Source: Tumebacillus algifaecis
GTDB lineage: Bacteria > Bacillota > Bacilli > Tumebacillales > Tumebacillaceae
Assembly (NCBI RefSeq): GCF_002243515.1
Contig: NZ_CP022657.1
Location: forward strand, 774,001 to 838,000
Reading direction: 5' to 3'
DNA length: 64,000 bases
Positions 608 through 9,233 of this stretch are shown piece after piece. Position numbers and translations under genes: made by a program. Every line of letters begins with the position of its first letter. Positions within the stretch are counted from its first letter, which is position 1. Below the pieces are notes generated by a model that saw only the letters and a program-made list of their open reading frames with translations, ran no database searches and was not told the DNA's origin.

Positions 608-722
608 GTCTCTTCTTTCCACTCCTTGTGCAAAAAGGTGAAACTTCAGTCTACAAATCTTACCCTTTTTCCAAGCGGCCTGCCAGCTTACGATGGGAGG
701 CAAGGAAAAGGGGGCGGTCTTT

Positions 723-2447
723 ATGTATGGCGAGCTGTTGAAAAAGGGACTTGGGCAGCAAAAGGGCAATGTGGTGGGACTTGGCGCCTTGCTGGCAGGC
801 GGAGCGCTGGTGCAGATCGGCAGTCCGCTGTTGCTGCGCAGGTACATCGATACCGCTCATGTTGGCGGCGCGCTGGACGTGCTGATCTGGGCTGCGTTCC
901 TGTTTTTGGTGTTGCAGGCGGTGCGGCAGGTCTTGCAGGTCGCGGGGACGTATCTGGCTGAGACGGTGGGGTGGACGGCGACCAATCGTCTGCGGACGGA
1001 GCTGTTTTTGCACAGCTTGAAGTTGGATCTAGGCTGGCACAAAGGAAAGACGGCAGGCGAGATGATGGAGCGGGTCGATGGAGATGTGACGGCGCTGGCC
1101 AACTTTTTCTCGCGGTTTGTGTTGAATGTGGCGGGCAATGTGCTGTTGCTCGCCGGGATGGTGGTGGTGCTCGCGCTGGTTGATGTGTGGGTGGGTCTGG
1201 CCTTTCTACTGTTTGTCGGCGGCGCGTTGTGGGTGCTCAATAGGATTCGGGAGATCGCAGTGCCACATTGGGTAGCGGCGCAGGCATCCCGTGCCGAGCT
1301 GTACGGATTTTTGGGGGAGCGGCTGGCCGGGCTTGAGGAGATCAAAGCAAACGGTGCAAGCGGGCATGTGCTGCGGCAGTTTTGGGCGCGGATGGCTGCA
1401 CTGTTTGGCAAGGAGCGGTCAGCCTATGTGCGCGGGCGGTCGTTGTGGCCGATGACTGTGGCCCTTTTTGCGGCGGGCTATGTGATGGTGTTTGTGCTGG
1501 GCAGTTTTCTGTACGATAGCGGACGGATCACGCTGGGCACGTTCTATTTGATGTTTAGCTATGTTGAGCTGTTGCGCGGGCCGCTCGATCAGATCACCGA
1601 AGAACTGCAGGATTTTCAAAAGGCGGCGGCGAGCGTGAAGCGGGTCGAAGCGTTGCTCGCGGTGCAAAGCAACGAGCAGGATACGGGTGATGCCGAGCTT
1701 GGCACTGGGGCGCTCGGGGTAGCGTTTTCCGAGGTGGAATTTGGCTATGGTGCGGAATCGGCGCTGGCAGGCGTGTCGTTTGCGGTGCGGCCAGGCCGCG
1801 TGCTCGGAGTGTTGGGGCGCACCGGAAGCGGCAAGACGACGCTGACGAGGTTGCTGTTGCGACTGTACGAGCCGCGGGCGGGTGCGGTGCAGGTTGGCAG
1901 TGTGGATGTGCGGGACGTGCCGCTGGCCGAGCTGAGACAGAAGATCGGCGTGGTGACGCAAGAGGTGCGCCTGTTTCGAGGGTCGGTGCGCGAGAATGTG
2001 ACCTTGTTTGACGCGATGGTGAGCGATTCGCGGATCGTCGAGGTACTGGAGGAGCTCGGGCTTGGCGAATGGCTGAACGGACTGGCGCAGGGGCTGGACA
2101 CGATGCTGGAGCCGGGGGGCGGGCTGTCGGCGGGGCAGGCGCAGTTGTTGTCCTTGGCTCGCGTCTTTTTGCGCGACCCGGGGCTGGTGATCCTTGATGA
2201 GGCGTCATCGCGGCTCGATCCGGCCACGGAGCGCTTGTTGGAGCAGGCGGTGCAGAAACTGCTACATGGCAGGACGGCGATCGTGATCGCGCACCGGATG
2301 GCGACGCTGCAGCAGGTCGATGACGTGCTGGTGCTGGAAGCAGGCCGCGTGCTGGAGTTTGGCGAGCGCGAGATGTTGCGTTCAAAAGCGGGCTCGCGGT
2401 ACGGGGAGTTGGTGCAGGTCGGCCATGAGGAGCGGGGACAGGGATGA
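723..2447 (+). CDS. ABC exporter half-transporter, catalytic-site subunit
   Basis: The protein has 574 aa: an N-terminal six-helix ABC transmembrane domain (to about residue 310) and a C-terminal nucleotide-binding domain. Walker A is GRTGSGKTT, the Q-loop lies in [10 protein letters not shown], Walker B ends in LVILDEASS with the normal catalytic Glu, and the H-loop is AIVIAHR. The signature is LSAGQ, not LSGGQ. ATG723 is preferred over the upstream ATG693 because AAGGGGG sits about 8 nt before it. It overlaps the next gene by ATGA, and the two together make a heterodimeric exporter of the BmrCD/TM287-288 type. Likely role: multidrug or peptide/lipid export at the membrane; substrate unknown. 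Confidence 0.88.
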
Positions 2448-4252
2448 GCAGGACAGAGACGAGTGCGCGCGGCTCCAAACGCGTCAGCTTTAAGCAGGGG
2501 GTGTGGCGGGTGAACATTTGGCGATTAGTGGGATGGTTGGTTCAGTTTCGGAGCGGGTGGTATGCGCTCGATGTCGCGCTGTGGGCGATCATTTTTGGGT
2601 TGCCGCTGTTGGCTGGGTGGATCGTGAAAGTGCTGTTTGATGCGGTCAGTGGAGCGGCTGATGTCGGCGTCGGCCCGTGGGGGCTGATCGTGGTGCTCCT
2701 GATGACGCTCTTGTTGCGAGCGATCGCGCTGATCGGTGGATTGTATGTGGATGCGACGTTGACGCTGACGTTGAAGTCGATTCTGCGCCGCAACGCGCTC
2801 TTTCATCTGCTACAAAAGCCGGGCGCTCAAGCGCTGCCCGACACTGCGGGCGACTCATTGGGACGATTGCGCGATGATGTGGACGAAATTGCCGATTTTA
2901 CCTCGTGGACGGCCGACCTGATCTACAAGCCCTTGCTGGCGCTGACAGCGCTTGGGGTGCTGTTTTGGATCGATCCGATGCTGACAGCGGTCGTGTGCAT
3001 CCCATTACTGGGCTTGATGGCCGCAGCCAATTTGGCCAAGCAGCGCTTAGAAAAATACCGCGTAGCCAATCGGGAGGCGGCGGGGCGCGTGGCCGGTTTT
3101 GCTGCGGAGTCGTTTGCGGCGGTCGGTGCGATCAAGTCGGCCGGAGCGGAAGAGCGGGTCACAGCGAAATTTCAGGAATTGAATGATCGGCGTCGCCAAG
3201 CTGCCGTAAAAGATCGTCTGTTCGCCGACCTGCTGGGGTCGATTTTTGAAAATGCGGTCGGGTTGGGCACGGGCCTGATCCTGCTGTTTGCCGCTCGGTC
3301 GATGCAGGACGGCAGTTTTTCGGTCGGGGACCTGGCTTTGTTCATCTTTTATCTCGACTGGCTTGGGAACATTCTGCACTTTCTTGGCCGTCTGATCGCA
3401 CGGGTGAAACAGGCCGAGGTGTCTGTCGATCGCTTGGTCGAACTGCAAGGTGCGCCTGCCGAGCAGTTGGTCGAGCATGCCGATGTCTATTTGGACGGCA
3501 GACTGCCGGAAGTGCCTTTTGTCGAAAAAAGTCAGGAGGATCGCCTGCAAGTGATGGAAGCAAAAGGTCTGACCTTTCGCTATCCCAGCTCAGGGCGCGG
3601 CGTGGAGAATGTGTCGCTCTGCCTGCACAAAGGGAGCTTCACGGTGATCACTGGGCGTGTGGGGGCAGGTAAGACGACCCTACTTCGCGCCTTGCTCGGG
3701 CTGGTCGCTCGCCAAGGTGAGGTGCGTTGGAATGGCGTAGAGGCCGCCGAGTTGACACCGCCGCGCACCGCCTATACCGCGCAGGTGCCACAACTGTTTG
3801 GCGAGTCACTGCGCGACAATCTGTTGCTCGGCATTCCAGAGGAGCGAGCCGATCTGGACGCCGCGATCCGTTCGGCAGTGCTGGAACAGGATGTAGAACG
3901 GATGGTGGACGGGCTGTCCACCGCGATCGGAGCGTCTGGAGTGAAGCTGTCTGGTGGACAGGTGCAACGGGTGGCGGCCGCGCGGATGTTTGTGCGAGAT
4001 GCAGAACTGCTGGTGTTTGATGATCTGTCTTCGGCGCTCGATCTGAAAACGGAGCGCGCGCTGTGGGAGCGGGTCATGGCGGGGCAGGATATGACATGTC
4101 TGGTCGTCTCCCACCGCCCGGCGGCGCTGATGCGGGCCGATCACATCATCTTGCTGAAGGAGGGCAAGGTGGAAGCGGAAGGGACGCTCGATCGGTTGCT
4201 CGCCGAGTCGGCGGAGATGCGAAAGCTGTGGGCTGAGCAACAGATGGAGTGA
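2444..4252 (+). CDS. ABC exporter half-transporter, degenerate-site subunit
   Basis: The protein has 602 aa with an ABC transmembrane domain and a C-terminal nucleotide-binding domain (Walker [10 protein letters not shown], signature LSGGQ, H-loop VVSHR). The residue after Walker B is Asp (LLVFDDLSS) where catalytic Glu is expected. This is the hallmark of the non-hydrolysing site of asymmetric heterodimeric exporters. The partner's altered LSAGQ signature would complete that same degenerate site, whereas this protein's LSGGQ completes the active one. The start codon overlaps the upstream stop, indicating translational coupling. Confidence 0.88.
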
Positions 4253-4420: not shown

Positions 4421-6064
4421 TTACCAAGTGCGCAGCGGAGGCGAACCAGGTGCCGGATTTTGTAGGATGTCGAAGATCGGATATCCGTAGGCGAGCAGGA
4501 TCAGCACAGCGGCGACGGTGAGCCAGATTCTCCATCTTTCGAGAATGCGTGGCGTTTGCTCTGCATTTTGTTCCATCTCTGCGATCGGATACTCCTCTTG
4601 TCCTTTCGGAGCGAAGCAGAGCAGGTAGATGAAAATGCCGATCATCAGCATCCCGCCGACGAAGAGCAACGCTCCGCCGATCGCCATCTGCTGGTAGTAC
4701 GGAATCCAACCCAGCGCCATCTCGCTGTCCATGTAGGTGGTGTAATCGGTACGGCGCGGGACGCCGAGCAGTCCCATGAAATGCATCGCACCCGACATGA
4801 AGAGCATGCCGACCGACCAGATCAGCGTTTGGATGATGCCGAGTCGGTTCACCCATTTGGTCAGCTTGCGTCCGGTCAGCGCCGGAACGAGCCAGTAGGA
4901 GATGCCGAAGAAGGTCAGTACGACCGAGGTGGCAACGGTCAGATGGAAGTGACCGACAACCCAGATCGTGTTGTGCACGACCGCGTTCATCTGGTTCGAC
5001 GCGTTGATGATGCCACCGATCCCAGCCGGAATGAACATCAGCATCCCGACCATCGGAGCGAAGAAGCGCACATCTTTCCAAGGCAATTTTGTAAACCAGC
5101 CGAACAGCCCTTTCGCCCCTCTGCGACGACCTGCCGTTTCGAAGACGGCAAACATCGAGAACGCGGTGAGCAGGGAAGGAACAACGACCGCCAGCGTCAG
5201 AATGACGTGGATAAACTTCCATTTTTCCGAGATGCCCGGCTCCATCAGCTGATGGTGGAAGCCGACCGGAATCGAGAACAGCACGAGCAGGATGAAGGCG
5301 AGACGCGCTAGAGAATCGGAGAACAGTTTGCCGCCGATAATTTTCGGGATGCAGACATACCAAGCGATGTATGCAGGCATCAACCAGAAGTAGACCAGCG
5401 GGTGACCGAAGTACCAGAACAGCATCCGCGAGAGCAGGACGTTGACCTCTGCGACCCAGCCGAACGACCACGGGATCAATTGGAACAGAACTTCGGCCGC
5501 CACGCCGAGCGTCGCGATCATCCAGAGCACAAGCGTTGCGATCGACATAAAGGCAAACAGAGGCGACATTTTGCCAGGGTTGTTTTTGCGCCAGCGGCGG
5601 TAGGCCGAGAACATGCCGAGTGCCGCCACCCAAGTGCCGACGATCAGGAGCGCCGCCCCGATGTAAAACCAAGGCGAGGCTTTCAGCGGTGCATAAAACG
5701 TATACAAAACGGAGGCGTCATTCAGCAGGATGGTCGCTACGACCATCGCCGTGCCGAAGAACATCAGCGCCCAGCCGATCCAGCCTGCTCGAAACGAGAA
5801 CGTGCTGAGTCCGCCCGTTGTTTTGGAAATTCCAGAGATCATAAAACCGATGATGAAGAACGTGGTAAATACTAAGGCCATCAATACGCCATGAGCGGTC
5901 AAAATCTGATAGTAGTTCATCCAATCGGGAAGTTCGATCATCCCGCCGCGCACCAAGCCTTGCAGCAGGCCCGCGATGGCGCCGATGCCAAATGCGAAGA
6001 AGGCGATGACGATGTAGGCCAGACTCATGCTGGCGTCGCGTTTGGGAATTGCTGTCGTCGTCAT
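4421..6064 (-). CDS. cbaA: ba3-type (type B) heme-copper oxidase subunit I
   Basis: The product has 547 aa and about 13 membrane helices. Heme and copper ligands are visible: low-spin heme His in TAHGVLMALVF, the CuB His with cross-link Tyr in GHPLVYFW, the His pair in GFHHQL, and the His of VGHFHLTV for high-spin heme and CuB. Length and sequence style are those of the compact B family (Thermus/Bacillus ba3) rather than caa3/aa3 enzymes. It reduces O2 to water and pumps protons. It is the last gene of a minus-strand operon with subunits IIa and II. AAAGGATGTGA precedes the start. No subunit III or cytochrome c gene is adjacent. Confidence 0.92.
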   Translation of the reverse strand: MTTTAIPKRDASMSLAYIVIAFFAFGIGAIAGLLQGLVRGGMIELPDWMNYYQILTAHGVLMALVFTTFFIIGFMISGISKTTGGLSTFSFRAGWIGWALMFFGTAMVVATILLNDASVLYTFYAPLKASPWFYIGAALLIVGTWVAALGMFSAYRRWRKNNPGKMSPLFAFMSIATLVLWMIATLGVAAEVLFQLIPWSFGWVAEVNVLLSRMLFWYFGHPLVYFWLMPAYIAWYVCIPKIIGGKLFSDSLARLAFILLVLFSIPVGFHHQLMEPGISEKWKFIHVILTLAVVVPSLLTAFSMFAVFETAGRRRGAKGLFGWFTKLPWKDVRFFAPMVGMLMFIPAGIGGIINASNQMNAVVHNTIWVVGHFHLTVATSVVLTFFGISYWLVPALTGRKLTKWVNRLGIIQTLIWSVGMLFMSGAMHFMGLLGVPRRTDYTTYMDSEMALGWIPYYQQMAIGGALLFVGGMLMIGIFIYLLCFAPKGQEEYPIAEMEQNAEQTPRILERWRIWLTVAAVLILLAYGYPIFDILQNPAPGSPPLRTW

Positions 6065-6099: not shown

Positions 6100-6567
6100 C
6101 TATTTCACTACGAGCTTGGCCATCATCATGTGGTGTCCTGCGCCGCAGTACTCGTTGCAGATGACCATGTATTCCCCCGCTTTCGTAAAGGTGGTCGTGG
6201 CGGTGTTGACATGGCCAGGCACGACCATCATGTTGACGTTGGTGCCGGGAATGGCAAAGCCGTGAATGACATCTTTGGACGTGGTGCGAAACGTGACTTC
6301 TGCGCCGAGCGGAATCACTTGTTCCGCCGGAGCATAGCCGAACGCGAAGGACGGCATGTTCAAGTCGTATTTGTTCTCGCCCTTCTTGACCAGACCTGGC
6401 TGATCGAACGGCGCGGTTTGATCGACCATCGCCGGGACGACTCGATTCAGATCGCTTGGCGGATGATGGCCGTGGGAAAAGGCATTGATCGCCAGCACGA
6501 TGATGAAAGCGACCAACGTCACTCCGCCAAAGATCAACCAGATTTTTTCAAATTTATGCAAGTGCAT
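6100..6567 (-). CDS. cbaB: ba3-type cytochrome c oxidase subunit II (CuA)
   Basis: The product has 155 aa: one N-terminal membrane helix (about residues 9-28) and a periplasm-facing cupredoxin domain. The binuclear CuA site is complete: His in KDVIHGF, then CNEYCGAGHHMM supplying Cys, Glu carbonyl, Cys, His and Met. Short length and one helix are typical of ba3 subunit II. It takes electrons from cytochrome c and passes them to subunit I. A GGGGAGGA ribosome site precedes the ATG. Confidence 0.92.
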   Translation of the reverse strand: MHLHKFEKIWLIFGGVTLVAFIIVLAINAFSHGHHPPSDLNRVVPAMVDQTAPFDQPGLVKKGENKYDLNMPSFAFGYAPAEQVIPLGAEVTFRTTSKDVIHGFAIPGTNVNMMVVPGHVNTATTTFTKAGEYMVICNEYCGAGHHMMMAKLVVK

Positions 6568-6606: not shown

Positions 6607-6774
6607 CTATTGCCGCTCCAGGAAGAGGAAAAATACGCTCAGCCAACTGAGGATGATGAGCGCACCTAAAATCATGACCGAAGCAAACGTGCCGCGCAGG
6701 GACGTCTCTTCTTCCGTCCGATGCGCAGTGGGCTTGTTCATTTCAGCATCCGTCTGCTTTTGCATCTGAGCCAT
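6607..6774 (-). CDS. Cytochrome c oxidase subunit IIa-like small membrane protein
   Basis: A 55-aa protein with a charged N-terminus and one C-terminal membrane helix starting at SLRGTFASVMILGALI, then LSWLSVFFLF. The SL(R/K)GT...LSW pattern is that of the COX2A family, the extra one-helix subunit of ba3 oxidases. ATG6774 is chosen because a strong GGAGGGAGG lies 8 nt upstream; the longer frame from 6804 lacks a site. It is the first gene of the oxidase operon. Confidence 0.85.
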   Translation of the reverse strand: MAQMQKQTDAEMNKPTAHRTEEETSLRGTFASVMILGALIILSWLSVFFLFLERQ

Positions 6775-6820: not shown

Positions 6821-6826
6821 AGTATA
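6821..6826 (-). promoter_or_regulatory. -10 element of the ba3 oxidase operon
   Basis: TATACT on the minus strand, 47 nt upstream of the subunit IIa start. The -35 region (about 6844-6849) has no consensus, which suggests activator dependence. The NreC-like site centred at 6857.5 would lie near -43 from the inferred start at about 6814. Confidence 0.6.
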
Positions 6827-6850: not shown

Positions 6851-6864
6851 CGGGGAACTCCCCG
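6851..6864. promoter_or_regulatory. NreC-like operator, oxidase promoter proximal site
   Basis: CGGGGAACTCCCCG: arms GGGG/CCCC around AACT. It fits the core GGG-N4-CCC of the known NreC site. Its centre is 36.5 nt upstream of the near edge of the -10 box, a position that would cover the -35 region. Confidence 0.6.
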
Positions 6865-6873
6865 AATGGCGAG

Positions 6874-6888
6874 GGGGGAACTCCCTGA
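6874..6888. promoter_or_regulatory. NreC-like operator, oxidase promoter distal site
   Basis: GGGGGAACTCCCTGA, a second copy 23 bp from the first (centre to centre). A weaker version (CGGAACTTCGGG) follows 21 bp further at about 6897-6908. The copies are therefore stacked at roughly two-helical-turn spacing. Confidence 0.55.
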
Positions 6889-6911
6889 ATCAACTTCGGA
6901 ACTTCGGGCCA

Positions 6912-6947
6912 CAAAAAAACAGCCAGCTCCGCGCGGGAGCTGGCTGT
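6912..6947 (-). terminator. Intrinsic terminator of the nreABC-like operon
   Basis: 12-bp stem ACAGCCAGCTCC / GGAGCTGGCTGT with a 5-nt loop, followed on the minus strand by a T-run. It lies just after the response regulator stop and before the oxidase promoter, so the two operons are separate transcripts. Confidence 0.88.
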
Positions 6948-6969
6948 AAAACAATTAGCTGTACAACAA

Positions 6970-7626
6970 CTATTCAAAATCGAGCAGACCCTTTTTCAGC
7001 GCATAGCGCACCAGTTCCGGCCTTGTTCGCATTTGCAGTTTCTCCATGATCTTCGCCTTGTGCGTCTCGACCGTTTTGACGGAGACGATCAATTGCTCGG
7101 CGATCTCTTTGTTCGAATAGCCTTTGGCGATGTATTGCAGGATCTCCTGCTCGCGGTCGGTCAGCACATGGAAGTTCTCCACGTCCTGCCCTTTTTGCAC
7201 GCGCTGGAGAAACTCGGTGATCAACGATTTGGTCGCCGTCGGGTGGAGATAGGCTGCCCCGACATGGACGGTGCGGATCGCGTTGATCAGGTCGAGGTCG
7301 GGTGCGCTTTTCAAAATATAGCCGGACGCGCCCGCCTGCAAGACGCGAAACAGATACTCTTCGTCATCGTGCATCGTCAACACCAAAATGTCGATCTGCG
7401 GAGCTGCTTCCTTTAGTCGAGCGGTGGCAGACAGACCGTTTTCGCCAGGCGGCATGCTGAGGTCCATCAACACGATGTCCGGTCGCAATTCCAGCGCTTT
7501 ATCGAACGCTTCTTTGCCATCGGCCGCCGTGCCGATCACTTCCATGTCGCTTTGCGCCCCGAGCAGCATCGACAGGCCGGAGCGAACGATCGCATGGTCA
7601 TCGGCGATCAACAAACGAATGGACAT
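6970..7626 (-). CDS. nreC: NreC-like NarL/FixJ response regulator
   Basis: The product has 218 aa: a receiver domain (ADDH acidic pocket, phospho-Asp in IVLMDLSMPP) followed by a LuxR-type helix-turn-helix (LTDREQEILQYIAKGYSNKEIAEQL... SVKTVETHKAKIMEKL). AAAGGAGG 8 nt before ATG7626 decides this start, which overlaps the end of the kinase gene. Together with the Fe-S kinase and GAF protein upstream it forms an NreABC-type system. The likely targets are the operators found in front of the oxidase operon and of this operon itself. Confidence 0.85.
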   Translation of the reverse strand: MSIRLLIADDHAIVRSGLSMLLGAQSDMEVIGTAADGKEAFDKALELRPDIVLMDLSMPPGENGLSATARLKEAAPQIDILVLTMHDDEEYLFRVLQAGASGYILKSAPDLDLINAIRTVHVGAAYLHPTATKSLITEFLQRVQKGQDVENFHVLTDREQEILQYIAKGYSNKEIAEQLIVSVKTVETHKAKIMEKLQMRTRPELVRYALKKGLLDFE

Positions 7627-8677
7627 GCTTAGGTCCTCCTTTCTCATCGAGTGGTATTGTTACCCCGATACGGGTGCCAGCGCCAGGCGCCGAGTCGATC
7701 TTGACGGTGCCGCCGAGCAGACTGGCCCGCTCGCGCATCCCAAACAGGCCGAGCCCCGTGCCTTTGATCCGCAGATGTTCAGGGTCAAAGCCGACTCCGC
7801 TGTCCTCGATGCAAATTTCGATCTGGTCATCCTGATCGGTCAAAGTGATCGCGAGCTGATCGGTGTCAGCATATTTGGCCGAGTTGGTCATCGCCTCTTG
7901 TAAAATTCGATACAGCGCGGTCTCCACCGTCGTCGCATAGCGGCGGCGTTGCCCGACCACAGTCAGTGTTGTTTCGATGCCAAACGTCTCTTCGAATCGC
8001 TTGAGGTAGGAGCGCACGGCAGGCACCAGACCCAGGTCGTCGAGCGCAGAAGGGCGCAGCTCGACCGACAGGCTTTTCACCTCTTCCAGCGTGCGCGACG
8101 TGAGCTTCTGCACTTCGTCGAGGTGTTCCTTGTAGGCCGGTTCCAGCGGCAATTGATTGACGACGCGAAGCCCGACCAAGATCGAATAGAGCGCCTGTCC
8201 GATCCCGTCGTGCAAGTCGCGGGAGATCCGTTTGCGCTCTTCTTCTTGTGCCTGGATCACATAGTTGGTCAACTGTCGCTGATGGCGTTCGCGTTCCATC
8301 CGCTGTTGTTCGGTGATGTCGCGCAAAATCAAAACCAGCGCGCCCAGCCCATCGGTTGGCAGGCGGGTGGAAGAGGCGGCGACAGGAATTTGTGCGCCGT
8401 TTTTGGTGCGGACGAACATTTCAAAGGATGGCATCTTCTGGCGTTTGGCGAAGCACTCGACACAGGTCATGTCCTCCGAGCAAGTCGCCATGCCGATGCA
8501 GACCTGACACAGGTTGAGGTTATGGATCAACTCTTCGGTCGAGTAGCCGGACAACGCTTCGAAGGCGTGGTTCGCGGCGATGATCGCCCCGTCTTTGTCG
8601 ATGACGAGAATTCCATCGCTAACATTTTGAAACAGCGATTCCAGAAAAGGAGTCGTTTCAGTAAGCGGAAACTTCAT
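7598..8677 (-). CDS. nreB: NreB-like oxygen-sensing histidine kinase with [4Fe-4S] PAS domain
   Basis: A 359-aa soluble kinase. The PAS domain (about residues 10-125) contains cysteines at 57, 60, 72 and 75, exactly the C-X2-C-X11-C-X2-C pattern that holds the oxygen-labile cluster in staphylococcal NreB, plus an extra Cys at 66. The dimerisation/phosphoacceptor segment RISRDLHDGIGQAL is HisKA_3 type, followed by an HATPase domain (DSGVGFDP, GTGLGLFGMRER). There are no membrane helices, so it is cytoplasmic. It starts 1 nt after the stop of the GAF gene. Expected: active without oxygen, phosphorylating the regulator downstream. Confidence 0.88.
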   Translation of the reverse strand: MKFPLTETTPFLESLFQNVSDGILVIDKDGAIIAANHAFEALSGYSTEELIHNLNLCQVCIGMATCSEDMTCVECFAKRQKMPSFEMFVRTKNGAQIPVAASSTRLPTDGLGALVLILRDITEQQRMERERHQRQLTNYVIQAQEEERKRISRDLHDGIGQALYSILVGLRVVNQLPLEPAYKEHLDEVQKLTSRTLEEVKSLSVELRPSALDDLGLVPAVRSYLKRFEETFGIETTLTVVGQRRRYATTVETALYRILQEAMTNSAKYADTDQLAITLTDQDDQIEICIEDSGVGFDPEHLRIKGTGLGLFGMRERASLLGGTVKIDSAPGAGTRIGVTIPLDEKGGPKHVHSFVDRR

Positions 8678-8678
8678 T

Positions 8679-9167
8679 TTATGGATTCACTCCCTCGTGT
8701 CCTTTTTCCTTACTATACACGGGGAAGTCGTGTCTGTGTATCCATGCGCGCAGTTCATTCGCTTTTGCCAAGATGCGCGCGACATCCTCGTTCGAAAATT
8801 CACGGTAGGAGCGGCAGCCGACCAGCATCATGCTGGGCACACACCCGCCGTCCGCTTCCATCGGGACCCCGACCAGCGACTTCAGCCCTTCGGCCAGCAG
8901 AATCGAGTATTCACGAGGGTCGTCCAAACTTTTCGGTTCGGTAAATTGCATCAGGAGCGGTCGGCCCATGCGGATCACGGTCCCGGCCAGCCCTTTCCCG
9001 GGGCGCAGCACGATGCGCTTGTAGCGATCGTTGCGGTTGCCGGAGACAAAGCGAAAGCGGATGACGTGCTCGGTTGGATCGGTTAATGCGATGGCGACAA
9101 AGTCCACTTCGATCTCCGTCCGAAGCCGATCCAGTTCTCGTTGAATCCTCGTATGCACATGCAGCAT
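8679..9167 (-). CDS. nreA: NreA-like GAF-domain protein (putative nitrate receptor)
   Basis: The product has 162 aa and is almost entirely one GAF domain (ALTDPTEHVIRFRF... GLAGTVIRMGRPLLM... LVGVPMEADGG). Length and position directly before the Fe-S kinase match NreA, the nitrate-binding partner of NreB in staphylococci. ATG9167 is chosen because GGAGGGGGTG precedes it and a TATAAT box lies just upstream; the longer frame to 9347 would run through that promoter. Whether it binds nitrate is not shown by the sequence. Confidence 0.78.
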   Translation of the reverse strand: MLHVHTRIQRELDRLRTEIEVDFVAIALTDPTEHVIRFRFVSGNRNDRYKRIVLRPGKGLAGTVIRMGRPLLMQFTEPKSLDDPREYSILLAEGLKSLVGVPMEADGGCVPSMMLVGCRSYREFSNEDVARILAKANELRAWIHRHDFPVYSKEKGHEGVNP

Positions 9168-9189
9168 CGACTTCACCCCCTCCCTGCAA

Positions 9190-9195
9190 ATTATA
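9190..9195 (-). promoter_or_regulatory. -10 element of the nreABC-like operon
   Basis: TATAAT on the minus strand, 22 nt before the nreA-like start. The -35 region is not consensus. An NreC-like site sits upstream at the same distance as in the oxidase promoter. Confidence 0.7.
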
Positions 9196-9219
9196 GCGAT
9201 TTCCTGCCGGGAATGCTCT

Positions 9220-9233
9220 CGGGGAACTCCCTG
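9220..9233. promoter_or_regulatory. NreC-like operator in front of nreA-like gene
   Basis: CGGGGAACTCCCTG. Its centre (9226.5) is 36.5 nt from the near edge of the TATAAT box, the same spacing as the proximal site of the oxidase promoter. Suggests autoregulation. Confidence 0.6.

Follow-up and report, generated by a model that had tools for sequence, protein, structure and literature searches.

Predicted NreC operators at the ba3 oxidase and nreABC promoters of Tumebacillus algifaecis and their counterparts in related Bacillales

Genes and operators of the cba-nre locus

The DNA analysed here (the window) is a stretch of 64,000 nt from Tumebacillus algifaecis (assembly GCF_002243515.1, contig NZ_CP022657.1, positions 774,001-838,000 of the forward strand, in a genome of 4,516,965 bases), and it carries the genes of a ba3-type oxidase (cba) downstream of those of an NreABC-like two-component system (nreABC). 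An earlier note on this DNA had proposed that the response regulator NreC controls both gene groups from matching operators. The features on which our evaluation of that proposal rests are listed below, from upstream to downstream along the gene strand:

9220..9233 (-), NreC-type operator of the nreABC promoter, CAGGGAGTTCCCCG on the gene strand
9190..9195 (-), -10 box of nreABC, TATAAT, by sequence reading
8679..9167 (-), nreA-like gene for a GAF protein of 162 amino acids, from a family match and solved structures
7598..8677 (-), nreB, a PAS-HisKA_3-HATPase kinase with C-X2-C-X11-C-X2-C, placed as NreB by domain search and motif
6970..7626 (-), nreC, a LuxR/NarL-type response regulator, placed as NreC by its receiver and GerE domains; start at 7626 by sequence reading
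6919..6947 (-), intrinsic-terminator-like hairpin between nreC and the cba promoter, with a 12-bp stem and a T tract (z -4.26)
6874..6887 (-), second (distal) NreC-type operator of the cba promoter, set 23 bp farther upstream than the proximal copy
6851..6864 (-), proximal NreC-type operator of the cba promoter, CGGGGAGTTCCCCG, an exact copy that is kept in relatives; GGGN4CCC to -10 is 26 nt
6821..6826 (-), -10 box of cba, TATACT, with no -35 consensus
6607..6774 (-), small membrane protein of 55 amino acids, first gene of the cba operon, kept in five family relatives
6100..6567 (-), cbaB, ba3 oxidase subunit II, with the CuA motif CNEYCGAGHHMM read by eye
4421..6064 (-), cbaA, ba3 oxidase subunit I, best solved relative Thermus ba3 (E about 1e-125)

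On the forward strand the proximal cba operator and the nreABC operator are the 14-mers CGGGGAACTCCCCG (6851-6864) and CGGGGAACTCCCTG (9220-9233), which differ by a single letter. Read along the genes, CGGGGAGTTCCCCG is followed by 24 nt and TATACT (-10 at 6826-6821) in the cba promoter, CAGGGAGTTCCCCG is followed by 24 nt and TATAAT (-10 at 9195-9190) in the nreABC promoter, and the distance from operator centre to -10 box is the same in both, at 31.5 nt when taken to the near edge of the box and 36.5 nt to its far edge. If the -10 box is taken to occupy -12 to -7, the proximal cba operator is centred at about -43.5. These readings confirm the operator positions (6851 and 9220) and the second oxidase copy 23 bp upstream that the earlier note reported, and its equal spacing also holds, but the 36.5 nt that it gave to the near edge of the -10 box is in fact the distance to the far edge. 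Its remark that both promoters lack a -35 consensus agrees with a sigma-70 consensus scan, which found no -35/-10 pair at the cba or the nreABC promoter. The weak third operator that it placed at about 6895-6908 was discounted, as the upstream stretches of five relatives hold no counterpart of it. With the terminator-like hairpin lying after nreC and ahead of the cba promoter, cba most likely forms a transcription unit of its own, downstream of nreABC.

The staphylococcal NreC consensus is GGG-N4-CCC, where reviews give just a GC-rich palindrome, and such a palindrome is present and conserved, as predicted sites, at the cba and nre promoters. The cysteine spacing of the window NreB is likewise that of staphylococcal NreB. 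The exact 11-mer GGGGAACTCCC occurs four times in the genome (reversed-pattern control, none); three of these copies are the window operators, and the fourth lies within a coding frame read as electron-transfer-flavoprotein-quinone oxidoreductase-like. With one mismatch allowed there are 49 genome matches versus 27 for the reversed control, and the bare motif was rejected as a genome-wide predictor on this ground; with two mismatches allowed, the window alone has 15 matches against a mean of 15.5, which is the chance level. When the box is joined to a suitably spaced -10 box (GGGANNTCCC-N24-28-TATANT), the genome holds two matches, exactly the cba and nreABC promoters, and the reversed control has none. 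The genome scan that the earlier note called for thus singles out both promoters by box plus spaced -10, whereas the bare motif with mismatches is unspecific. Across seven Tumebacillaceae genomes the same combined pattern gives 12 matches versus one when reversed.

The window CbaA is a ba3-type oxidase subunit, being nearest to Thermus ba3 among the solved heme-copper oxidases and keeping, in alignment to solved relatives, the cross-linking Tyr (GHPLVYF) that marks oxidases as against nitric oxide (NO) reductases (PMC3475470). The gene group resembles Thermus thermophilus CbaAB and Bacillus cbaAB (PMC3475470) in its subunits I and II, CuA motif, cross-linking Tyr and small extra membrane protein, and a high O2 affinity of the window enzyme may be expected from its family.

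Box type, spacing and sensors in relatives

Species genomes were scanned for cba loci, of which there are at least 80 (L051-L130; loci and genomes are referred to by L and G numbers); these form the comparison set. Presence or absence of NreB could be assigned at 79 of these 80, from the locus for the two Tumebacillus and from a whole-genome search for the others; NreB of this type is a best match of 54-61% identity, near full length and 398-459 bits, and otherwise the best match has ≤188 bits. The 82 promoters compared are those of the readable loci, the window and three more family genomes; L109 is excluded, and so is L061, whose contig starts inside cbaB and whose genome has NreB of this type. 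Boxes were scored at one mismatch or fewer, with TGTGA-N6-TCACA as the FNR box consensus. The NreC box is found in 22 of 23 cba promoters from NreB-bearing genomes versus none of 59 from genomes without this NreB (58 genomes, L054 and L114 being one); among those 59, 46 have an FNR box and 13 neither box. The two box types never occur together in one promoter (0/82). A Fisher test of NreB against box gives 3e-19 (L109 included), a value that is overstated owing to shared ancestry. Among named relatives, Tumebacillus avium has the CbaA nearest to that of the window (86% identity), and five other Tumebacillaceae genomes with such a cba have nreB and nreC directly upstream and the box in the cba promoter. 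At L063 the cba box is kept and nreB ends about 10 kb upstream on the same contig; at L057 the contig stops 281 bases past cbaA.

The geometry of the window promoters is shared by these relatives. In cba promoters the distance from NreC box to -10 is 26 or 27 nt in 21 of 22 if degenerate proximal boxes count and in 19 of 22 if the box is taken strictly; with the -10 placed at -12 to -7, the box is then centred at -43.5 or -44.5. In nre promoters the distance is 26 nt in 18 of the 21 examined. Of 47 promoters with an FNR box, 30 have it 21-22 nt from a -10, versus about 0.25 expected per distance after shuffling, and their boxes are thus centred at -41.5 or -42.5. Relative to the -10, then, the cba and nre promoters have what looks like a class-II activator layout, with the box centre near -41.5 to -44.5 and no -35. 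Between five Tumebacillaceae and 16 other (Brevibacillus-type) cba promoters, identity is 0.80 in the box, 0.67 in the -10 and about 0.35 in the spacer, and a second conserved island (up to 0.69 identity) lies about 22 bp upstream of the box in Tumebacillus and Brevibacillus.

All 22 orthologues of this type have the four-cysteine motif of NreB, which is missing from every one of 12 distinct divergent homologues from NreB-less genomes that align over the PAS region, a count that excludes four aligned only past that region and three duplicates. A fifth cysteine midway (C-X2-C-X5-C-X5-C-X2-C) occurs in the window NreB and all 22 orthologues. Fnr with a C-terminal cysteine cluster was read at 30 of 30 loci, one per genome; these are 21 of 24 NreB-less and nine of 16 NreB-bearing genomes outside Tumebacillaceae, with a partial match in G023 outside those counts. 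Both sensors are thus present in at least nine of these 16 NreB-bearing species, and it would therefore be the promoter that makes the choice. In the seven Tumebacillaceae genomes Fnr with the cysteine cluster was not found (matches were ≤138 bits and ended at or before residue 228 of 237), and the cluster is absent from the 16 Crp-family proteins read there, of 17 (L226 is the other). A gene for such an Fnr within about 10 kb of cba was seen at 10 of the 47 loci with an FNR box, at none of the 18 with an NreC box and at four of the 14 with neither (L109 is included in this comparison, and L061 is unlabelled). Two Brevibacillus are exceptions: B. dissolubilis has no such NreB and an FNR box, and strain SYP-B805 has both NreB and Fnr and an FNR box.

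Other genes with a spaced box, and nitrate reductase

Searching 24 genomes for the box plus spaced -10 gave 27 matches, in 15 of 16 NreB-bearing genomes and none of the eight without this NreB (reversed control, 0), the sole NreB-bearing genome with no match being that of L070. By position and neighbouring genes, 12 of the 27 belong to nre, 11 to cba, three to usp and one to a U32 peptidase-family gene. The 12 Tumebacillaceae matches divide into five nre, three cba, two usp (G005 and G006), one hybrid-cluster protein gene (hcp, G002) and one before a 193-amino-acid open reading frame (G002:C10); the last has no Pfam family, was rejected as a target and is most likely chance. The usp and hcp matches are on contigs other than that of nre, or megabases away from it, and the distance therefore fits a trans-acting reader of the box.

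The usp genes with box and -10 encode two-domain Usp proteins in Brevibacillus (L193, L196 and L194) and single-domain ones in Tumebacillus (L141 and L135); the domains were assigned by Pfam for L193 and L141, as was the U32 family. In G002 the prismane/hybrid-cluster protein gene (L140, position 1501) is preceded by a spaced NreC box, and another box lies about 20 bp farther upstream; alone among the family genomes, G002 combines nreA and nreB with the lack of a CbaA of this kind. The U32 peptidase-family gene of G011 (L201, position 1501) has an NreC box with a stacked upstream near-match, read by eye.

Control of dissimilatory nitrate reduction genes, which counts among the marks of NreABC, did not emerge from a search for NarG: no match over the cut-off was found in the seven Tumebacillaceae genomes and one was found in 24 other genomes (nir, narT and other nitrate/nitrite genes were outside this search). 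The earlier note's opinion that the oxidase is an unusual target for this system was an understatement. In the one NarG-bearing genome (G010) an FNR box, TGTGATTTTTTTCACA, stands just upstream of narG and no NreC box is near. A NarG-like match in the own genome was rejected as nitrate reductase, since its 30.6 bits are far below the cut-off; this fragment scores best as formate dehydrogenase alpha, likewise far below cut-off.

Predicted control by NreC and its alternatives

Judged by these sequence comparisons, it is quite probable that phospho-NreC switches on the ba3 oxidase and nreABC at falling O2, acting in place of Fnr as a class-II activator. A drop in O2 would release NreB from the action of O2 on its iron-sulfur cluster, the kinase would autophosphorylate and pass the phosphate to NreC, and a phospho-NreC dimer would bind GGGANTTCCC centred at about -43.5 from the predicted start sites of both promoters. 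There it would stand in for the missing -35 box, as in class-II activation, and in the cba promoter a second dimer would bind about 22-23 bp further upstream; the expected outcome, activation rather than repression, would be more ba3 oxidase and positive autoregulation of nreABC. Relatives without the NreC box at cba most likely rely on Fnr for this activation, acting at a box centred at about -41.5. The cba promoter has thus probably exchanged its oxygen sensor, being served by Fnr (about -41.5) in most of the NreB-less Bacillales examined and by NreC (about -43.5) in Tumebacillus and Brevibacillus. The operator control by NreC that the earlier note envisaged gains support from the co-occurrence with NreB, the cross-genus conservation of box and spacing, and the boxes at usp and hcp.

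Several findings weigh against this interpretation. The nre and cba genes adjoin in nearly all NreC-box loci, and on the CbaA tree the 22 NreC-box rows lie inside one 27-row set (Shimodaira-Hasegawa-like approximate likelihood ratio test 99) together with two FNR-box and three unlabelled rows; with such clustering, the co-occurrence counts cannot be treated as independent trials. That tree has three or more changes of box type (two of them forced by starred branches) and, being unrooted, does not show which type is ancestral. L070 has NreB and yet no NreC box in its cba promoter, which has a perfect FNR box instead; L048, L052 and L072 are without a spaced box at nre (in L052 and L072 nreBC lies directly downstream of cba), and three Tumebacillaceae (G003, G001 and G004) have a perfect box at the distal position of the cba promoter but a degenerate one at the proximal position. 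The GAF protein scores 96 bits where the cut-off of the NreA family is 175; NreA is its sole NCBIfam match and its nearest solved structures are of nitrate-sensor NreA (E 7e-18), so we call it NreA-like, not NreA. In Caldalkalibacillus thermarum, a species outside Tumebacillus and Brevibacillus, ba3 is reported to exceed the other oxidase in abundance at most O2 levels under 4.2%, which speaks for the proposal, but to fall again under 0.42% O2 (PMC11551716). Against the part assigned to Fnr, the genome of L118 has no match to Fnr with the cysteine cluster, yet its cba promoter has an FNR-like box, and at both L118 and L129, which have such a box, the nearby Crp-family gene is without the C-terminal cysteine cluster. 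Also against it stand the 13 NreB-less promoters with neither box, and the four loci of this neither-box kind at which an Fnr with the cluster is encoded nearby.

NreC might also bind these boxes in response to a main signal other than O2, namely nitrate through NreA, NO, or sulfide. The nreA gene is present in five of six Tumebacillaceae nre-cba loci, and by eye also in G002, and its product resembles the nitrate-sensor structures; hybrid-cluster proteins are often linked to NO in other bacteria, and the hcp gene of G002 has the box. The NreBC of Bacillus licheniformis senses sulfide (PMC9918477). We nevertheless think such a signal unlikely, in view of the invariant four-cysteine motif in all 22 NreB orthologues and of NarG matches that stay under the cut-off in all seven Tumebacillaceae and in 23 of 24 other genomes. 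Outside Tumebacillus, moreover, nreA is found in just two of 17 cba loci of NreB-bearing genomes (L072, and L057 as a contig-end fragment), a count in which L063 and L070 have their nre genes outside the cba locus. That NreC represses from these boxes, or acts both ways and for example turns cba off at zero O2, could account for the fall of C. thermarum ba3 under 0.42% O2, where some regulator may limit it (PMC11551716). It is quite unlikely, however, since neither promoter has a -35, the box occupies the class-II activator position at which the FNR boxes of relatives stand (-41.5/-42.5), and nreABC itself has the same architecture.

The reader of the box could instead be another LuxR/NarL-family response regulator, for these are numerous in the genomes concerned and GC-rich palindromes are common among the sites of this family. 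Such a regulator is very unlikely given that the box stands at nre itself in 18 of the 21 promoters examined and follows the presence of NreB, the box plus -10 having no match in the eight genomes without this NreB. Equally, the confinement of NreC-box rows to one part of the CbaA tree is what would be seen if the box were a hitch-hiking or chance remnant of one ancestral promoter with no present function, but a box identity of 0.80 versus 0.35 in the spacer across genera, and the same box and spacing at nre and at the distant usp and hcp genes, make a remnant hardly credible.

If phospho-NreC does activate cba as proposed here, a known NreABC system would have a new target. According to reviews, the staphylococcal targets of phospho-NreC are nar, nir and narT, where it recognises a GC-rich palindrome (PMC8139620, PMC5694512). 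The window system is like that of S. carnosus and S. aureus in its GAF protein, iron-sulfur PAS kinase, NarL-type regulator and GC-rich palindrome, and unlike it in where the boxes stand, which is at nreABC and the ba3 oxidase and, among relatives, at usp, hcp and the U32 gene too. The B. licheniformis NreBC (PMC9918477) has similarly departed from nitrate respiration in a member of the Bacillales, and its phosphorylated NreC binds a site predicted from the S. carnosus NreC site; it controls sqr-pdo, senses sulfide and has a PAS domain reported to differ from characterised ones, whereas here the iron-sulfur cysteines are kept and the predicted target is an oxidase. Bacillus-type Fnr, with its C-terminal cysteine cluster, is likewise an iron-sulfur oxygen regulator with a box at the matching class-II position of cba promoters, but it is a one-component Crp-family protein where NreBC is a two-component system, and it was not found in the seven Tumebacillaceae genomes. 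The open-licence literature, which leaves most subscription journals outside, yielded no report of NreBC, or of any regulator, controlling a Bacillales ba3 oxidase, and NreC is here a predicted one. If our interpretation is correct, NreABC would no longer be just a nitrate regulator but a more general iron-sulfur oxygen sensor, one able to govern oxygen respiration itself, and the cba promoter would be a naturally occurring example of a promoter that two unrelated iron-sulfur oxygen sensors can each control.

Two further observations concern neighbouring genes. Five loci (L089, L095, L107, L121 and L122) have a divergent NreBC near cba (NreC about 60% and NreB 33-36% identical, in the order A-C-B or C-B); its kinase is without the four cysteines, yet a box of the same type stands upstream of its genes in L089, L095, L121 and L122. 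In the window, two neighbouring ABC exporter genes at 693-4252 on the plus strand converge with cba, and CydC and CydD are among their family matches below cut-off.

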